The notes beneath the pieces were generated by a model. The model was not told where the DNA came from and did not search any database. It worked only from the letters and a program-made list of their open reading frames with translations. Position numbers and translations under genes: made by a program. From NCBI GenBank assembly GCA_024643945.1, contig JAHELX010000287.1:1-7604 (forward strand): 7,604 nt of DNA. The letters are read 5' to 3'. The stretch is from Anaerolineales bacterium. Lineage in GTDB: Bacteria > Chloroflexota > Anaerolineae > 4572-78 > NAK82. Of the stretch, positions 1,042 to 7,604 are shown in pieces (the stretch's first letter is position 1; the number at the start of each line of letters is the position of its first letter).

Positions 1042-4000
1042 TTGGCCGGACTGTTGTGGCCTGACTATCCCGATCGCTCTGCCCTTACCAACTTACGCTC
1101 CGCGCTGGCGAATCTGCGCCAGACCAGCGGTGACCACCAGGCCCATCCGCCCTTCTTGCTGATCACCCGCGACACAGTCCAGTTCAACACCGCCAGCGAT
1201 TATGCGCTGGATGCATCAACCCTCCAAGACCTACCACATCTATCGATTGACCAGTTGGAACAAGCCGTCGCCACCTATCGGGGCAGCTTCCTGGAGGGGT
1301 TCTCCCTTGCGGATAGCGCACCTTCTGAGGAATGGGTGCTGTATAAGCGGCAGCAGATCAGCCGGCAGATGCTGGATGCGCTGCAACGACTGGCGGCGCA
1401 TTTCGAGGAATGCGGAGATTACAAACGCGCCATCGCTTATGCCCGCCGGCGGCTTGAACTGGAGCCGTGGGATGAGAATGCGCATTGCCAGTTGATGCGG
1501 TCACTCGCGTTAAGCGGTCAGCGCAGCCTGGCCCTGGCCCAGTACGAGGCGTGTAGCCGTCTGCTGCAACAGGAATTGGGCGTCGAGCCGGCCCATGAGG
1601 CGACGGCGCTATATGAGAGCATCCGCGATGAGACGCTCGCGCCGATCTCCACGGCGCGCCTCGCCAGGCCAGACGGTCAAGCGCCGGAACCTCCGGCCCC
1701 CGGTGAACCCCCCTTCAAGGGCTTGAGCTTTTTTGACGAGGCAGATGCCGGTCTGTTTTTCGGCCGCGAAGCGCTGACCGCCCAACTCGTGGCCCAGGTA
1801 TGTGACTGTCTTGCTCCCGATCACGGCCAGTACCGCGTCCTGACCGTGATCGGCGCGTCCGGCAGCGGCAAATCGTCGATCGTGCGCGCCGGGCTCGTCC
1901 CTGCTCTCAGACTCTTGGCGCCGCCTGCGGAAGGCTCCATTGCCCGCAGCGGCCCTGAATCACAACCAGCCTTCCAGGATTCGATCTACGTGATCACGCC
2001 CACGGCTCACCCGCTGGAAGCGCTTGCCATCAGTTTGACGCGCACGGCCGATTCGGTGATGGCAACCACTGCGCTGATGGATGAGCTGGTCCGTGACCCG
2101 CGCAGCCTGCACTTCGCTGCCGCCCGCATCGCGCACCTTGGCGGCGCTTCGCATGTGTTGCTGGTCGTGGATCAATTCGAAGAGCTGTTCAGCCTGTGTC
2201 ACGACGAAGCCGAGCGCAGAGCATTCGTGGACAACCTGCTCTACGCCGCCCAAGCCCCTGGCCCGACCATCGTCGTCATTGCCTTGCGTGCCGACTTCTA
2301 TGCCCAATGTGTCCCCTTCGAAAACCTGCGCCAGGCATTGTGCGAACGGCAAATATACATCGGCGCCATGAGCCCCGAGGCGTTGCGCCGGGCGATCGAA
2401 GAACCGGCCCGACTCGGCGGCTGGACCTTTGAGCCGGGCCTGGTAGATTTGCTGCTGCACGAGGTTGGCGATGCGCCGGGCGCGCTGCCGCTGCTGTCGC
2501 ATGCCTTGCTCGAAACGTGGCGGCGACGGCGCAGGCGCACCCTCACGCTGGCCGCTTACCAGGAGTCCGGTGGCGTGTCCGGCGCGCTTGCCAGGACCGC
2601 CGAGACAACGTTCAATCGGTTGACGCCCAAGGAGCAGGTGATTGCCCGCAACATCTTTGTGCGGTTGACCGAGCTGGGCGAAGGTGCAGGCGACGAGCAT
2701 CTGCCGGAACTCTACACGCGCCGCCGCGCCGCGCTGGCCGAGCTCATCCCGCGCCCGGAAGACGCCCTGGTAGTGCAAGACGTGCTCAAGAAGCTGGCCG
2801 ATGCCCGCCTGGTCACCACCGGCCACGAGACGGTTGAAGTCGCCCATGAAGCCCTGATTCAGGAGTGGGTCAGGCTGCGCGAATGGCTGAATGAGAGGCG
2901 CGCAGGGTTGCGTTTGCACCGCCAGCTCACCGAAGCTGCCCAGGAGTGGGAAAGGCTGGCGCGAGATTCGGGCCTGCTCTACCGGGGCGCCCGGCTGGCC
3001 CAGGCGCTGGAGTGGGCAGACGCCCATCCAGACGATCTGAATATGCAGGAGCGGCTCTTCCTTGAAGCGAGCCTGACCGAACAGCGGGCTGAGCAGGAAG
3101 CTGAAGCAGCCCGCCAGCGGCGCGAGCTCGAAGCGGCGCAGACCCTGGCCGAGGCGCAGCGCCGGCGAGCAGAAGCCGAAATACAGCGCGCCGAGGAGCA
3201 GGCGCAGGCCGTCCGCAAGCTGCGCCGAAGTGCAGTTTACCTCGTCTTGGCGCTCGTCGCCCTGACCGGGCTGCTGCTCGTCGCCACCTGGCTGGGCCAA
3301 CTGGCGAGACGCAATGCTCAAGCGGCGCAGGAGCAAGCGCGCCTGGCCACATCGCGCGAGCTGGCCGCTGCTGCGGTCAACAACTTGCAGGTTGATCCGG
3401 AGCGCAGCGTACTCCTGGCTTTGCACGCGCTCTCGACGGCCGACACGCTGGAAGCCAGGAATGCTCTCCACCAGTCCCTGCCTGAGCTGCACATCCTGCG
3501 CACCACGGCGGCCCACAGCAGCCGGGGTACGCCCGGCGTGGCATTCAGCCCGGATGGCGCCCGGCTGGCCAGCATCGGCGTAGATGAAACGGCCAAAGTG
3601 TGGGATACAGACTCCGGCCAACAGTTGCTGACGCTAACCGGCGCGCCAGGCGACGCCGGATTTAGTGTTGCCTTCAGCCCGGACGGCAGGCTCCTGGCGA
3701 CGTCTTGGATCAGCCAGGTCATTGTGTGGGATGCCGCCACTGGTGAAAGGCTGTTCAGCCTACCCGGGGAAGTCATCGGCATGGCCGTCGATCGCTTTGA
3801 CTTCAGCCCAGACAGCACACGCCTGGCGGTCGCCAACATGGATGGCCTGCCCAAGGTTTGGGATCTCGCCAGGCGCACCGAGCTATTCGCACTGGCCGGC
3901 CACACGCAGATTTGCGACGGTATTGCTTTCAGTCCTGACGGGAAACGACTGGCCACCGGTGATCTTGCCGGTATCGTCAAGATTTGGGACGCGCTCACGG

Positions 4001-4680
4001 GCCAGGAACTGGCCACGCTTGAGCACGGTGGGATGGTCCATAGCGTGACCTTTAGCCCGGATGGAGGACGATTGGCCTCGGCCAGCAACAACGGCCGGCT
4101 GATGGTCTGGGAAACCGCCAGCGGCAGATCGGTGTTGAGCTTGCCCGCCCGTTCGGGACTCTACGATGTGACTTACATGCCGGATGGGGAGCGCCTGGTT
4201 AGCGTTCATCAGGATGGAACGACAGCCGTGTGGGATGCGGTCTCCGGCCAGCCGCTGCTCACGCTGGCCGGTCACCTGAGCACGGTCATCGCTGTCGCCG
4301 CCAGCCCTGACAACGTCCAGATTGCGACTTCAGGCTACGACGGCTCGGTCTACGGCGTCGCCTACAACCCAGACGGGTCTCGGCTGGCTACAGCTAGCTT
4401 CGACAAATTCGCCAAGGTGTGGGATGTGCAAACAGGCCAAGAGCTTATGACCCTGTATGGCAACACCAGCAACGTGTTTGGCGTTTCCTTTAGCCCGGAC
4501 GGCAAGCATGTGGCGACCGCAGGCGGCGATGGCACGGCACGTATCTACACCATGGACATGGATGAACTGACCAATCTTGCCCGCTCACGCGTAACTCGTG
4601 CGCTGACAACCGAGGAATGCCGCGGGTATTTTCACCTGGAACAGTGTCCAGATGACCGTTCGGGGCATAGCGCACCTTGA
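1042..4680 (+). CDS. BTAD - STAND ATPase (nSTAND1-type) - transmembrane - WD40 repeat protein
   Basis: From TTG 1042 this frame encodes 1212 residues. Domain order (TTG as residue 1): end of a SARP-type DNA-binding region (1-60); BTAD helical repeat domain (about 64-198); P-loop STAND ATPase (about 225-640) with Walker A GASGSGKSS (271-279, Lys277), Walker B LLVVDQFEE (373-381), and the family-typical YIGAMSPEALRRAIEEP (from 439) and VEVAHEALIQEW; charged coiled coil (674-729); one transmembrane helix (731-751); then WD40 repeats from about 834 to 1190, recognised by nine FSPDG-like strands and VWD ends. The C-terminal tail with SRVTRALTTEEC is familiar from Chloroflexota homologues. STAND proteins are signal-responsive ATP switches; the WD40 propeller is probably the sensor or scaffold. 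TTG 1042 is only the first usable start in frame: homology runs upstream to about 937 but is frameshifted. The target genes and ligand are unknown. Confidence 0.85.
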   Translation: MAGLLWPDYPDRSALTNLRSALANLRQTSGDHQAHPPFLLITRDTVQFNTASDYALDASTLQDLPHLSIDQLEQAVATYRGSFLEGFSLADSAPSEEWVLYKRQQISRQMLDALQRLAAHFEECGDYKRAIAYARRRLELEPWDENAHCQLMRSLALSGQRSLALAQYEACSRLLQQELGVEPAHEATALYESIRDETLAPISTARLARPDGQAPEPPAPGEPPFKGLSFFDEADAGLFFGREALTAQLVAQVCDCLAPDHGQYRVLTVIGASGSGKSSIVRAGLVPALRLLAPPAEGSIARSGPESQPAFQDSIYVITPTAHPLEALAISLTRTADSVMATTALMDELVRDPRSLHFAAARIAHLGGASHVLLVVDQFEELFSLCHDEAERRAFVDNLLYAAQAPGPTIVVIALRADFYAQCVPFENLRQALCERQIYIGAMSPEALRRAIEEPARLGGWTFEPGLVDLLLHEVGDAPGALPLLSHALLETWRRRRRRTLTLAAYQESGGVSGALARTAETTFNRLTPKEQVIARNIFVRLTELGEGAGDEHLPELYTRRRAALAELIPRPEDALVVQDVLKKLADARLVTTGHETVEVAHEALIQEWVRLREWLNERRAGLRLHRQLTEAAQEWERLARDSGLLYRGARLAQALEWADAHPDDLNMQERLFLEASLTEQRAEQEAEAARQRRELEAAQTLAEAQRRRAEAEIQRAEEQAQAVRKLRRSAVYLVLALVALTGLLLVATWLGQLARRNAQAAQEQARLATSRELAAAAVNNLQVDPERSVLLALHALSTADTLEARNALHQSLPELHILRTTAAHSSRGTPGVAFSPDGARLASIGVDETAKVWDTDSGQQLLTLTGAPGDAGFSVAFSPDGRLLATSWISQVIVWDAATGERLFSLPGEVIGMAVDRFDFSPDSTRLAVANMDGLPKVWDLARRTELFALAGHTQICDGIAFSPDGKRLATGDLAGIVKIWDALTGQELATLEHGGMVHSVTFSPDGGRLASASNNGRLMVWETASGRSVLSLPARSGLYDVTYMPDGERLVSVHQDGTTAVWDAVSGQPLLTLAGHLSTVIAVAASPDNVQIATSGYDGSVYGVAYNPDGSRLATASFDKFAKVWDVQTGQELMTLYGNTSNVFGVSFSPDGKHVATAGGDGTARIYTMDMDELTNLARSRVTRALTTEECRGYFHLEQCPDDRSGHSAP

Positions 4681-5537: not shown

Positions 5538-6251
5538 ATGTCGGCAGAAGAAACTTTGGTACAGCGAGCCTACACCAGCATTCTTGAACACTTGGTACAG
5601 ACTGGACGGGCACCTCATTACACCGAGTTGGCCCATACTCTGGGAGTGGGACCTGACGAAGCCCGGGATCTACAGCGCGAGGCGGCGAAAGCTGGCGTCG
5701 GCTGTTGGTTCGTCCAAGACACAGATTACATTGAGTCGTGGGCGCCGTTCTACAACGCTCCCACCCAATATCTGGTGACGGTGGAGGGCGAACAGAAATG
5801 GTATGGTCAATGAGGACTGGAAGTGCTAGCCGTGCGCTGGCTCTTTCCCGGCACTGAGGTCCGCATCGACACACGTTGCCTGGATTGCGGAGAACCGATC
5901 CTCATCCGCATGCGGGACGAGGAGATTCTGGAAGTGAACCCACCGACGACTGTCGGCCATATGAACGTCCCGCTCTCCAAGCTTTTAGCGGGGGAAGTCT
6001 CTGCTAGATTTGCGTGAAGCCAAATGAATCTCTTCCGGTCGGAAGAGCATGTCAAGAACTGGTCATCTTACAATTCCATCTCCGAGGAGGCCATAATGCC
6101 GCTGGCCAACTGGGCGTTGGCCTTCAGTGGGTCGATGTGTCGCGACCGTCTGGGACCGGATATTCTCTCACGGAGGAGCGAATACCTTTCCGAACTCTTC
6201 CGTACGTTGCAGGAGTTGGGTAAGGAGGGTTCGTTCTGGCAGCCCGGGTAA
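5538..6251 (+). CDS. MerB-like (organomercurial lyase family) protein, candidate double selenoprotein with TGA at codons 92 and 160
   Basis: One frame of 238 codons runs from ATG 5538 (AGGA at 5524-5527, 10 bases ahead) to TAA 6249-6251. It is broken only by TGA at 5811-5813 (codon 92) and 6015-6017 (codon 160). Residues about 10-90 resemble the MerB N-terminal helix-turn-helix domain. The region after codon 92 (GLEVLAVRWLFPG, then a CLDC pair at 114-117, then VNPPTTVGHMNVP) matches the MerB core. In MerB (R831b numbering) Cys96 and Cys159 bind mercury and Asp99 protonates the C-Hg bond. Here the first TGA aligns with Cys96, Glu95 with Asp99, and the second TGA (before SQMNLF) with Cys159. 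The length of 237 compares with 212 for MerB. Cysteines elsewhere use TGC or TGT, and the neighbouring STAND gene ends in TGA, so general TGA reassignment is unlikely. Read strictly, this would be a pseudogene of three ORFs (5538-5813, 5823-6017, 6024-6251). The actual substrate is unproven. Confidence 0.72.
5819..5847 (+). promoter_or_regulatory. SECIS-like hairpin after the first in-frame TGA
   Basis: GGAAG (5819-5823) pairs with CTTTC (5843-5847), with one G-T pair. After a single T-T mismatch, GCTAGC (5825-5830) pairs with GCTGGC (5836-5841), again with one G-T pair. The apical loop is CGTGC (5831-5835). The loop starts 17 bases after the TGA and has G in its second position followed by T. 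This fits the general bacterial SECIS rules: a G in the first two loop bases, and 16-37 bases from the TGA. In E. coli fdhF the key loop bases G23 and U24 are counted from the U of UGA; here GT is at 22-23. Confidence 0.55.
6030..6047 (+). promoter_or_regulatory. SECIS-like hairpin after the second in-frame TGA
   Basis: CTCTTCC (6030-6036) pairs perfectly with GGAAGAG (6041-6047) around the tetraloop GGTC (6037-6040). The loop begins 19 bases after the TGA. Counting the T of TGA as 1, the loop reads G23 G24 T25; the E. coli fdhF SECIS loop contains the same GGUC with G23 and U24. The hairpin lies inside coding sequence, as bacterial SECIS elements do. Confidence 0.62.
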
Positions 6252-7019: not shown

Positions 7020-7086
7020 GCGCAGCGATCAAGATCTTCTGAGCGACATTCGAACTTATTCGTCGGATTTCATGGCATGGCCATGA
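7012..7086 (+). pseudogene. HEPN (DUF86, HepT-like) toxin remnant, N-terminus only
   Basis: ATG 7012 overlaps the end of the MNT remnant (stop at 7017-7019), the usual arrangement of MntA-HepT gene pairs. The 24 residues start MSKRSDQDLLSDIRTYSSDF, which resembles the first helices of DUF86 HEPN toxins. A TGA at 7084-7086 ends it. The Rx4-6H ribonuclease motif and most of the domain, normally over 100 residues, are absent. The call rests on the short N-terminal likeness plus the position behind the MNT remnant. Confidence 0.45.
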
Positions 7087-7388
7087 TTGAGGAAATCTGC
7101 CAGAAGTTTGCACGTGACGAGTTTGAGTTCTCAAAGCATGCCGCAGACCAATCGATCCTGCGCGGAATCAGGGTCTGGGAGATACGGGAAGCGGTTAGCG
7201 TTGGGGAAATCATCGAGGACTATCCAGATGACAAATACGGACCGAGTTGCTTGATACTCGGATACACTCAATCAAACAGACCAATTCACATTCAGTGCAG
7301 TTACTCATCGCGTTCGGTGATAAAGGTAATTACGGTTTACGAACCTGACCCTACCGAGTGGGTCGAGTTCAGACTCAGGAGAGAGTAA
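7077..7388 (+). CDS. DUF4258 domain protein (possible toxin of a type II-like pair)
   Basis: This frame encodes 103 residues from ATG 7077; ATG 7083 is an equally likely start, because it forms an ATGA overlap with the stop of the HEPN remnant, suggesting coupled translation. Only a weak GGA (7065-7067) precedes. The protein shows the DUF4258 pattern: FSKHAADQSILRGI (the HAxxRxxxRGI-like first motif, with Gln in place of the usual first Arg), then VSVGEIIEDYPDD, SCLILGY and the closing VITVYEPDPTEW. DUF4258 proteins are small and related to RelE/BrnT-like folds. They are often encoded directly before a YgiT-type protein, as here, which suggests a toxin-antitoxin role, though biochemical function is generally unproven. 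The gene looks intact. Confidence 0.8.
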   Translation: MAMIEEICQKFARDEFEFSKHAADQSILRGIRVWEIREAVSVGEIIEDYPDDKYGPSCLILGYTQSNRPIHIQCSYSSRSVIKVITVYEPDPTEWVEFRLRRE

Positions 7389-7389
7389 G

Positions 7390-7604
7390 ATGGCAACTGA
7401 GACTAGGGAAGAAAGACTTGTAGAGCAAAGAGTCACCTACACTTTGTTAAAAGATGGTAAGCTTTACGTTATTGAGAAGGTGCCGGCACGGGTGAACGTA
7501 GAGACAGGTGAACAGTTCTTCTCACCGCAAACGGTTGAGCAATTGCAGCACATCATTTGGGAGGAGCGACAGCCGATTCGGGTCATTCAAACGCCGGTAT
7601 TTGA
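7390..7604 (+). CDS. YgiT-like protein without zinc-finger cysteines, 3' partial
   Basis: ATG 7390 lies one base after the stop of the DUF4258 gene, with GGAG at 7378-7381 eight bases ahead, so the two genes are translationally coupled. The frame is open to the window end (71 full codons). The pattern LKDGKLYVIEKVPARV and ETGEQFFSPQTVEQLQ matches YgiT/MqsA-type antitoxin N-termini. However, the CxxC pairs usual in that family are absent: VNVETGE stands where VCxxCGE would be expected, and no cysteine occurs in the visible part. It is probably the antitoxin partner of the DUF4258 protein. Its C-terminal end, and any DNA-binding part, are outside the window. Confidence 0.7.
   Translation, partial: MATETREERLVEQRVTYTLLKDGKLYVIEKVPARVNVETGEQFFSPQTVEQLQHIIWEERQPIRVIQTPVF

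Follow-up and report, generated by a model that had tools for sequence, protein, structure and literature searches.

A MerB-like protein family with predicted selenocysteine at both positions of the mercury-binding cysteines

A 7,604-nucleotide stretch of DNA from an Anaerolineales bacterium of the Chloroflexota (contig JAHELX010000287.1 of assembly GCA_024643945.1; hereafter the window) contains a MerB-like gene interrupted by two in-frame TGA codons. Its product is a predicted MerB-fold protein in which the TGA codons are likely to be read as selenocysteine (Sec), and we consider it probable that this protein binds and protonolyses organic mercury. Comparison of sequences makes Sec very probable at both sites. 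An organomercurial is somewhat favoured as the substrate over another soft-metal organyl, and its cleavage is predicted from homology. Selenols bind mercury more tightly than thiols; if the reading is true, selenols replace both mercury-binding thiols of a detoxification enzyme.

A single reading frame across two TGA codons

From the ATG at 5538 to the TAA at 6249–6251, TGA occurs at codons 92 and 160 and no other stop is present (Table 1). This confirms the single frame, interrupted by TGA alone, that an earlier note on the window had described; the product is 237 residues long, followed by the stop. The same note had aligned the two codons by eye with Cys96 and Cys159 of MerB, and had proposed aligning the read-through translation with PF03243. 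The alignment by eye was right: a profile of 60 family members, aligned with PDB MerB chains, places the TGA codons at these two cysteines. The read-through product scores above the PF03243 gathering score and thus belongs to that family, and a MerB fold is predicted for it. Cys96, Asp99 and Cys159 are active-site residues of MerB, according to the available portions of PMC8261052 and PMC4525700. Between the window gene and its relative at locus L001, the estimated ratio of nonsynonymous to synonymous substitution rates (dN/dS) is 0.16 before TGA 92, 0.17 between the TGAs and 0.26 after TGA 160, showing at the level of coding sequence that purifying selection acts on both sides of the TGA codons.

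Table 1. Coordinates of the MerB-like gene and its features in the window
Feature	Position	Strand	Basis
MerB-like gene, 237 codons plus TAA, two in-frame TGA	5538..6251	+	Open reading frame (ORF) reading
PF03243 MerB domain, residues 73–191	5754..6110	+	73.9 bits against a gathering score of 27
TGA codon 92, predicted Sec, at MerB Cys96	5811..5813	+	Alignment
Glu95 codon, at MerB Asp99	5820..5822	+	Alignment
SECIS-like hairpin 1: 6-bp stem, loop CGUGC at 5831–5835, 17 nt past TGA	5825..5841	+	
CLDC motif, Cys114 and Cys117; Cys114 at MerB Cys117	5877..5888	+	Alignment
TGA codon 160, predicted Sec, at MerB Cys159	6015..6017	+	Alignment
SECIS-like hairpin 2: 7-bp stem, loop GGUC at 6037–6040, 19 nt past TGA	6030..6047	+	

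The two codons recur among relatives

A first set of loci, the best 80 of 200, came from scanning genome contigs with patterns; the alignment behind these patterns contained some database proteins whose residue at site 92 was Trp, Cys or Ser. Codons 92 and 160 are both TGA in 75 of the 80. Four loci (L022, L028, L029 and L065) have Cys (TGC or TGT) at 92 and TGA at 160, and in L031, which has TGA at 92, the second site lies past the end of the contig; TGA is thus found at 92 in 76 of 80 loci and at 160 in all 79 that reach this codon. No further in-frame TGA lies between the chosen start and the terminator of any locus, the frames being cut at TAA or TAG by construction and yielding products of at least 218 residues except in L031. 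The tblastn match of L080 crosses a stop near the C-terminal end. Because 75 of 80 loci repeat exactly these codons and carry no TGA elsewhere, the two-TGA pattern is beyond chance. Position 95 is an acid throughout (GAA or GAG in 79 loci, GAC in one), and both cysteines of the CLDC motif are present in 75 of the 80.

A profile search of 395 genomes of one phylum (the phylum sample) gave 27 loci in 23 genomes, 26 of them with the states Sec/Glu/Sec at positions 92/95/160, TGA being read as Sec. Eleven of the 27 overlap with the first set; double TGA is found in 15 of the 16 new ones. One locus of this sample, L152, is split across two frames and has TGA at both sites. Going by record titles, double-TGA loci occur in Chloroflexota, deltaproteobacterial groups, Nitrospirae, Acidobacteria, Gammaproteobacteria, Acidimicrobiales, Rokubacteria and Poribacteria.

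Under the plain code, two in-frame TGAs could mark a decaying pseudogene with two nonsense mutations. The recurrence of the identical two codons in both sets, the lack of any other in-frame TGA and the low dN/dS around the TGAs led us to reject this explanation, to which we give almost no credence. The earlier note had argued against random decay, and its argument stands: the homologues are free of random stops and frameshifts, with the split L152 as the sole exception.

Exchange of selenocysteine and cysteine

Homologues with Cys or TGA at the two positions, which the earlier note had proposed to look for, do exist. We collected 39 further loci, of which 38 (all except L092) could be aligned; their states at 92/95/160 are Cys/Asp/Sec in 21, Cys/Glu/Cys in 11, Sec/Glu/Sec in four and Cys/Glu/Sec in two, with no others. 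The window gene thereby shows what is expected of a bacterial selenoprotein gene, in that its in-frame TGA codons line up with Cys in homologues. A quick tree of 165 rows, which has one long-branch join (L080 with P0118), gives 22 switches of the state at 92 by parsimony, nine of them forced by starred branches; on it, the window protein clusters with L001 (Sec92, 89% identical) and P0012 (Cys92). A distant MerB-like group, 21 of the loci L084–L091 and L105–L128, combines Cys92 and Asp95 with a lone TGA at 160. One of its members, L084, is about 30% identical to the window protein and keeps a hairpin with a GGUC loop; it is the one of eight distant loci for which the hairpin check gave a result.

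We also fetched 148 database proteins and assigned their residue at 92 by motif count. Ser is found in three (P0002, which has Cys at 160, P0009 and P0010), and Trp in 44 full-length proteins. The latter number is what decoding of TGA as Cys or Trp, by a changed code or read-through and without selenium, might produce. However, P0003, which has two Trp, shares 95% identity with L003, where TGA stands at both codons; because the two are nearly identical, we infer gene calling under code 4, and the Trp residues of P0003 are most likely a gene caller's reading of TGA. In addition, a gene of the window itself (1042–4680) terminates at TGA, and the conserved hairpins, SelA and tRNA-Sec with a TCA anticodon described below speak for Sec. 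We regard decoding without selenium as highly improbable; the changed-code version was rejected on the P0003–L003 comparison and the TGA stop of the window gene.

Other database forms, about 155–159 residues long, end at codon 160; P0129, for example, equals L029 over 157 residues up to the TGA. Such forms could mean that the TGAs are a selenium-dependent switch and that a short product of 91 or 159 residues is functional. This explanation is even less probable than a selenium-free decoding, as conservation and purifying selection extend to the part past TGA 160, and in some loci the sequence past this codon leads into a further domain.

Hairpins downstream of the TGA codons

Downstream of each TGA lies a hairpin resembling a selenocysteine insertion sequence (SECIS). 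The rules for bacterial SECIS (bSECIS) elements in the available part of PMC13188914 are a loop of 3–9 nt, a stem of 4–16 bp, G in the first two loop positions and a spacing of 16–37 nt. Both hairpins agree with them in loop, stem, G and spacing (the test did not include the energy rule): the loops are 5 and 4 nt long, with G at position 2 in hairpin 1 and at position 1 in hairpin 2.

The folding analysis took in the window gene and those of 79 loci, 80 genes in all, and compared 48-nt segments with shuffles that keep protein and codon usage. The folding excess is maximal at the TGAs, with −1.67 kcal (t −5.8) at site 92 and −4.53 kcal (t −13.0) at site 160, t values that are inflated because the genes are related. 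The excess is gone 18 nt downstream, and lesser excesses are seen 9–27 nt upstream; at site 160, segments 27 and 36 nt downstream fold less than shuffles. The core of hairpin 2, UCUUCC-GGUC-GGAAGA, occurs unchanged in 72 of 80 sequences, and 78 have its GGUC loop. In this loop, Arg is always encoded by CGG and Ser by TCG (79 of 79 cases each), versus 25% and 19% elsewhere in the genes, and one pair of hairpin 2 has changed on both sides, in 13 distinct sequences. In hairpin 1, 99.8% of pair cells form (77 sequences). Folded singly, the window hairpins are weak (z −1.1 to −2.1), and the evidence for them is therefore comparative; by this comparison both are shown to be conserved beyond the demands of protein coding. 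Recurrence, exchange with Cys and the SECIS-like hairpins together support the double-Sec MerB-like candidate proposed in the earlier note.

Selenocysteine machinery

Machinery was searched for in 49 genomes, those behind L001–L051 except L015 and L019, the latter lying in the same genome as L007. Over curated cut-offs, SelA is found in 43, tRNA-Sec in 42 and SelB in 41, and 48 of the 49 genomes have at least one of the three. The genome of L001 has SelA (545.7 bits), a tRNA-Sec with a TCA anticodon and the start of SelB, 42 residues followed by a gap of 100 N. No tRNA genes were found in the window, and its single Rfam match at E ≤ 1 is weak, under the gathering score and outside the gene.

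A predicted organomercurial lyase

In the proposed mechanism, the SelA, SelB and tRNA-Sec system would decode both TGAs as Sec, each codon with its own SECIS-like hairpin. Sec92 would bind the metal of an alkyl-mercury compound, and Sec160 and Glu95 would act as Cys159 and Asp99 do in protonolysis, so that the carbon group is protonated off. Cell thiols or the CxxC motif would then receive the Hg(II).

Some members of the family carry further domains. In six Chloroflexota loci (L013, L014, L016, L017, L023 and L076) the frame runs past both TGAs into about 280 more residues, and an AAA ATPase scores over cut-off in both of the extensions tested (L013 and L016). A class III adenylate/guanylate cyclase domain (PF00211) is found over cut-off at the C-terminal side of L019 and L021, which have double TGA, and of L022, which is Cys/TGA. 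These fusions suggest a sensing role in some members.

In the phylum sample, hgcA is found in 16 of 23 genomes with the gene versus 98 of 372 others, a comparison uncorrected for kinship; this association hints at methylmercury. Desulforhabdus sp. TSK (L005), a double-TGA locus, comes from a genome in which SelA, SelB, tRNA-Sec and HgcA all score over cut-off and MerA does not.

The main rival to cleavage is a double-Sec MerB-fold protein that leaves organomercury intact and serves in sensing or sequestering soft metals, or in handling another organometal or organometalloid. The cyclase and AAA ATPase fusions would fit such a role, as would the absence of a mer operon and the scarcity of MerA; two selenols would also grip Hg(II) very tightly. 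Against this stands the acid at the MerB Asp99 position, Glu or Asp in 80 of 80 loci of the first set and in 38 of 38 aligned further loci, which weighs for cleavage because protonolysis would need an acid. Moreover, a large extra region is limited to nine of the 80 loci (393–519 residues), and the association with hgcA also argues against a purely sensing or sequestering protein. We consider this alternative unlikely, though it deserves to be taken seriously.

Several observations weigh against a double-Sec organomercurial lyase. No mer operon surrounds the gene, MerA scores over cut-off in five of the 49 genomes, and the HgcA match of the nearest relative has 198.8 bits, under the cut-off of 275; the fusions, as noted, suggest sensing in some members. 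The machinery counts cover the genomes of relatives, and in one of the 49, G009, SelA, SelB and tRNA-Sec are all below cut-off. In the class of the nearest relative, G001, SelA is present in 129 of 150 genomes; Sec use by the host of the window is therefore likely, but a protein so common regardless of the gene has no discriminating power. The family is rare in that class, where the window protein has matches in 10 of 150 genomes (two TGAs in one match, one TGA in eight, and one partial match without TGA). In the class of G026, the link is modest, with SelA in 15 of 16 genomes that have a TGA-bearing homologue versus 119 of 182 others (p 0.023). Hairpin 1 has no two-sided pair changes and shuffles match its pair scores. 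Among the Cys92 loci, the site-92 hairpin is lost in L028 and L029 and kept in L022 and L065; this control is not clean, because the loci are too few and two retain the hairpin.

A broader scenario is more tentative still, and we find it possible but rather doubtful: anaerobes, including many hgcA methylators, might hold a double-Sec methylmercury lyase, with the cyclase and AAA fusions acting in some lineages as a selenium-based organomercury sensor. Having TGA as catalytic codons and Glu as the acid, such a lyase would be invisible to mercury-gene surveys. The genome survey PMC8261052, in the portion available, screened MerB by Cys96, Asp99, Cys117 and Cys159, a screen that the double-TGA family fails because Cys96, Asp99 and Cys159 are replaced; the same portion reports hgcAB to be absent from genomes with merB but without merA. 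A review of methylmercury formation (PMC7319479, available part) states that demethylation genes are yet to be discovered. If the reading is true, the gene would supply a demethylation route that has so far been missing and that gene surveys overlooked, and, if methylators hold a double-Sec lyase, a cycle of methylation and demethylation would close inside one cell. Database copies of double-TGA proteins sit disguised, some cut short at the second TGA and others showing Trp in place of both. The record title of Desulforhabdus sp. TSK bears no label of a metagenome-assembled genome, and the idea may be directly testable there.

Neighbouring genes

The neighbourhood survey used a simple ORF caller on flanks of unequal length. 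It found no conserved operon, the commonest neighbour cluster within 4 kb occurring in 10 of 81 loci. At L054, L058, L064, L068 and other Syntrophaceae-like loci, same-strand downstream genes recur, which we take to resemble an iron-sulfur oxidoreductase and a flavin adenine dinucleotide (FAD)-linked oxidase, a guess from their sequence. In the window, 1042–4680 encodes a protein of 1212 residues with BTAD, nSTAND1 nucleoside triphosphatase (NTPase) and WD40 repeats, which ends in TGA and is unrelated to the MerB-like gene. A DUF4258 protein (7077–7388) is followed directly by a small ORF (7390–7602); the two may be a toxin-antitoxin pair, which is a guess.

Comparison with known systems

Canonical MerB (PF03243; PDB structures 1s6l, 3f2f and 5c17) has the signature Cys96, Asp99, Cys117 and Cys159 (PMC8261052, available portion). 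In the window protein, Cys96 and Cys159 are replaced by TGA codons and Asp99 by Glu, whereas the Cys117 position is kept as Cys114. It also differs from canonical MerB in a C-terminal stretch past the MerB match, up to residue 237, and in lacking a mer operon, and its scores fall far below the MerB equivalog cut-offs (34.1 of 193 bits for NF009710 and 29.5 of 200 for NF033555).

Like hairpin 2, the SECIS of Escherichia coli fdhF has a GGUC apical loop, 22–25 nt from the U of UGA compared with 23–26 at codon 160 here; unlike it, the window gene has another stem sequence and two elements in one gene. Other double selenoproteins, such as MbdU (NF045648), also have two Sec in one protein; the window protein has no match to such double-selenoprotein models at E ≤ 1.

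The earlier note knew of no MerB with two Sec. In its available part, the 2026 inventory PMC13188914 lists SaoL alone under MerB/alkylmercury and names no two-Sec MerB; a single-Sec MerB-like protein was already on record. Two papers cited there, Haft and Gwadz 2023 and Haft and Tolstoy 2025, might still contain a two-Sec MerB. Term searches of PMC2398784, PMC5029168, PMC9312934 and PMC12013277 gave no entry for a double-Sec MerB, and no title on one was among the listed results of the literature searches.

SaoL (NF040728) is a MerB-like organometallic lyase and a predicted single-Sec protein with the motif CU (PMC13188914, available part). It is like the window protein in being MerB-related with predicted Sec, and all 60 members of alignment A4 match its profile of 159 positions at E ≤ 0.001 (best 2e-14). 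The two differ in that SaoL has one Sec, in its CU motif, whereas the window protein has two separate predicted Sec, the second following Ala159; Cys precedes codon 160 in none of 79 loci. The window protein scores 37.4 bits against the SaoL curated cut-off of 140. We conclude that the gene belongs to a widespread family of predicted double-Sec MerB-like proteins, distinct from the single-Sec SaoL.
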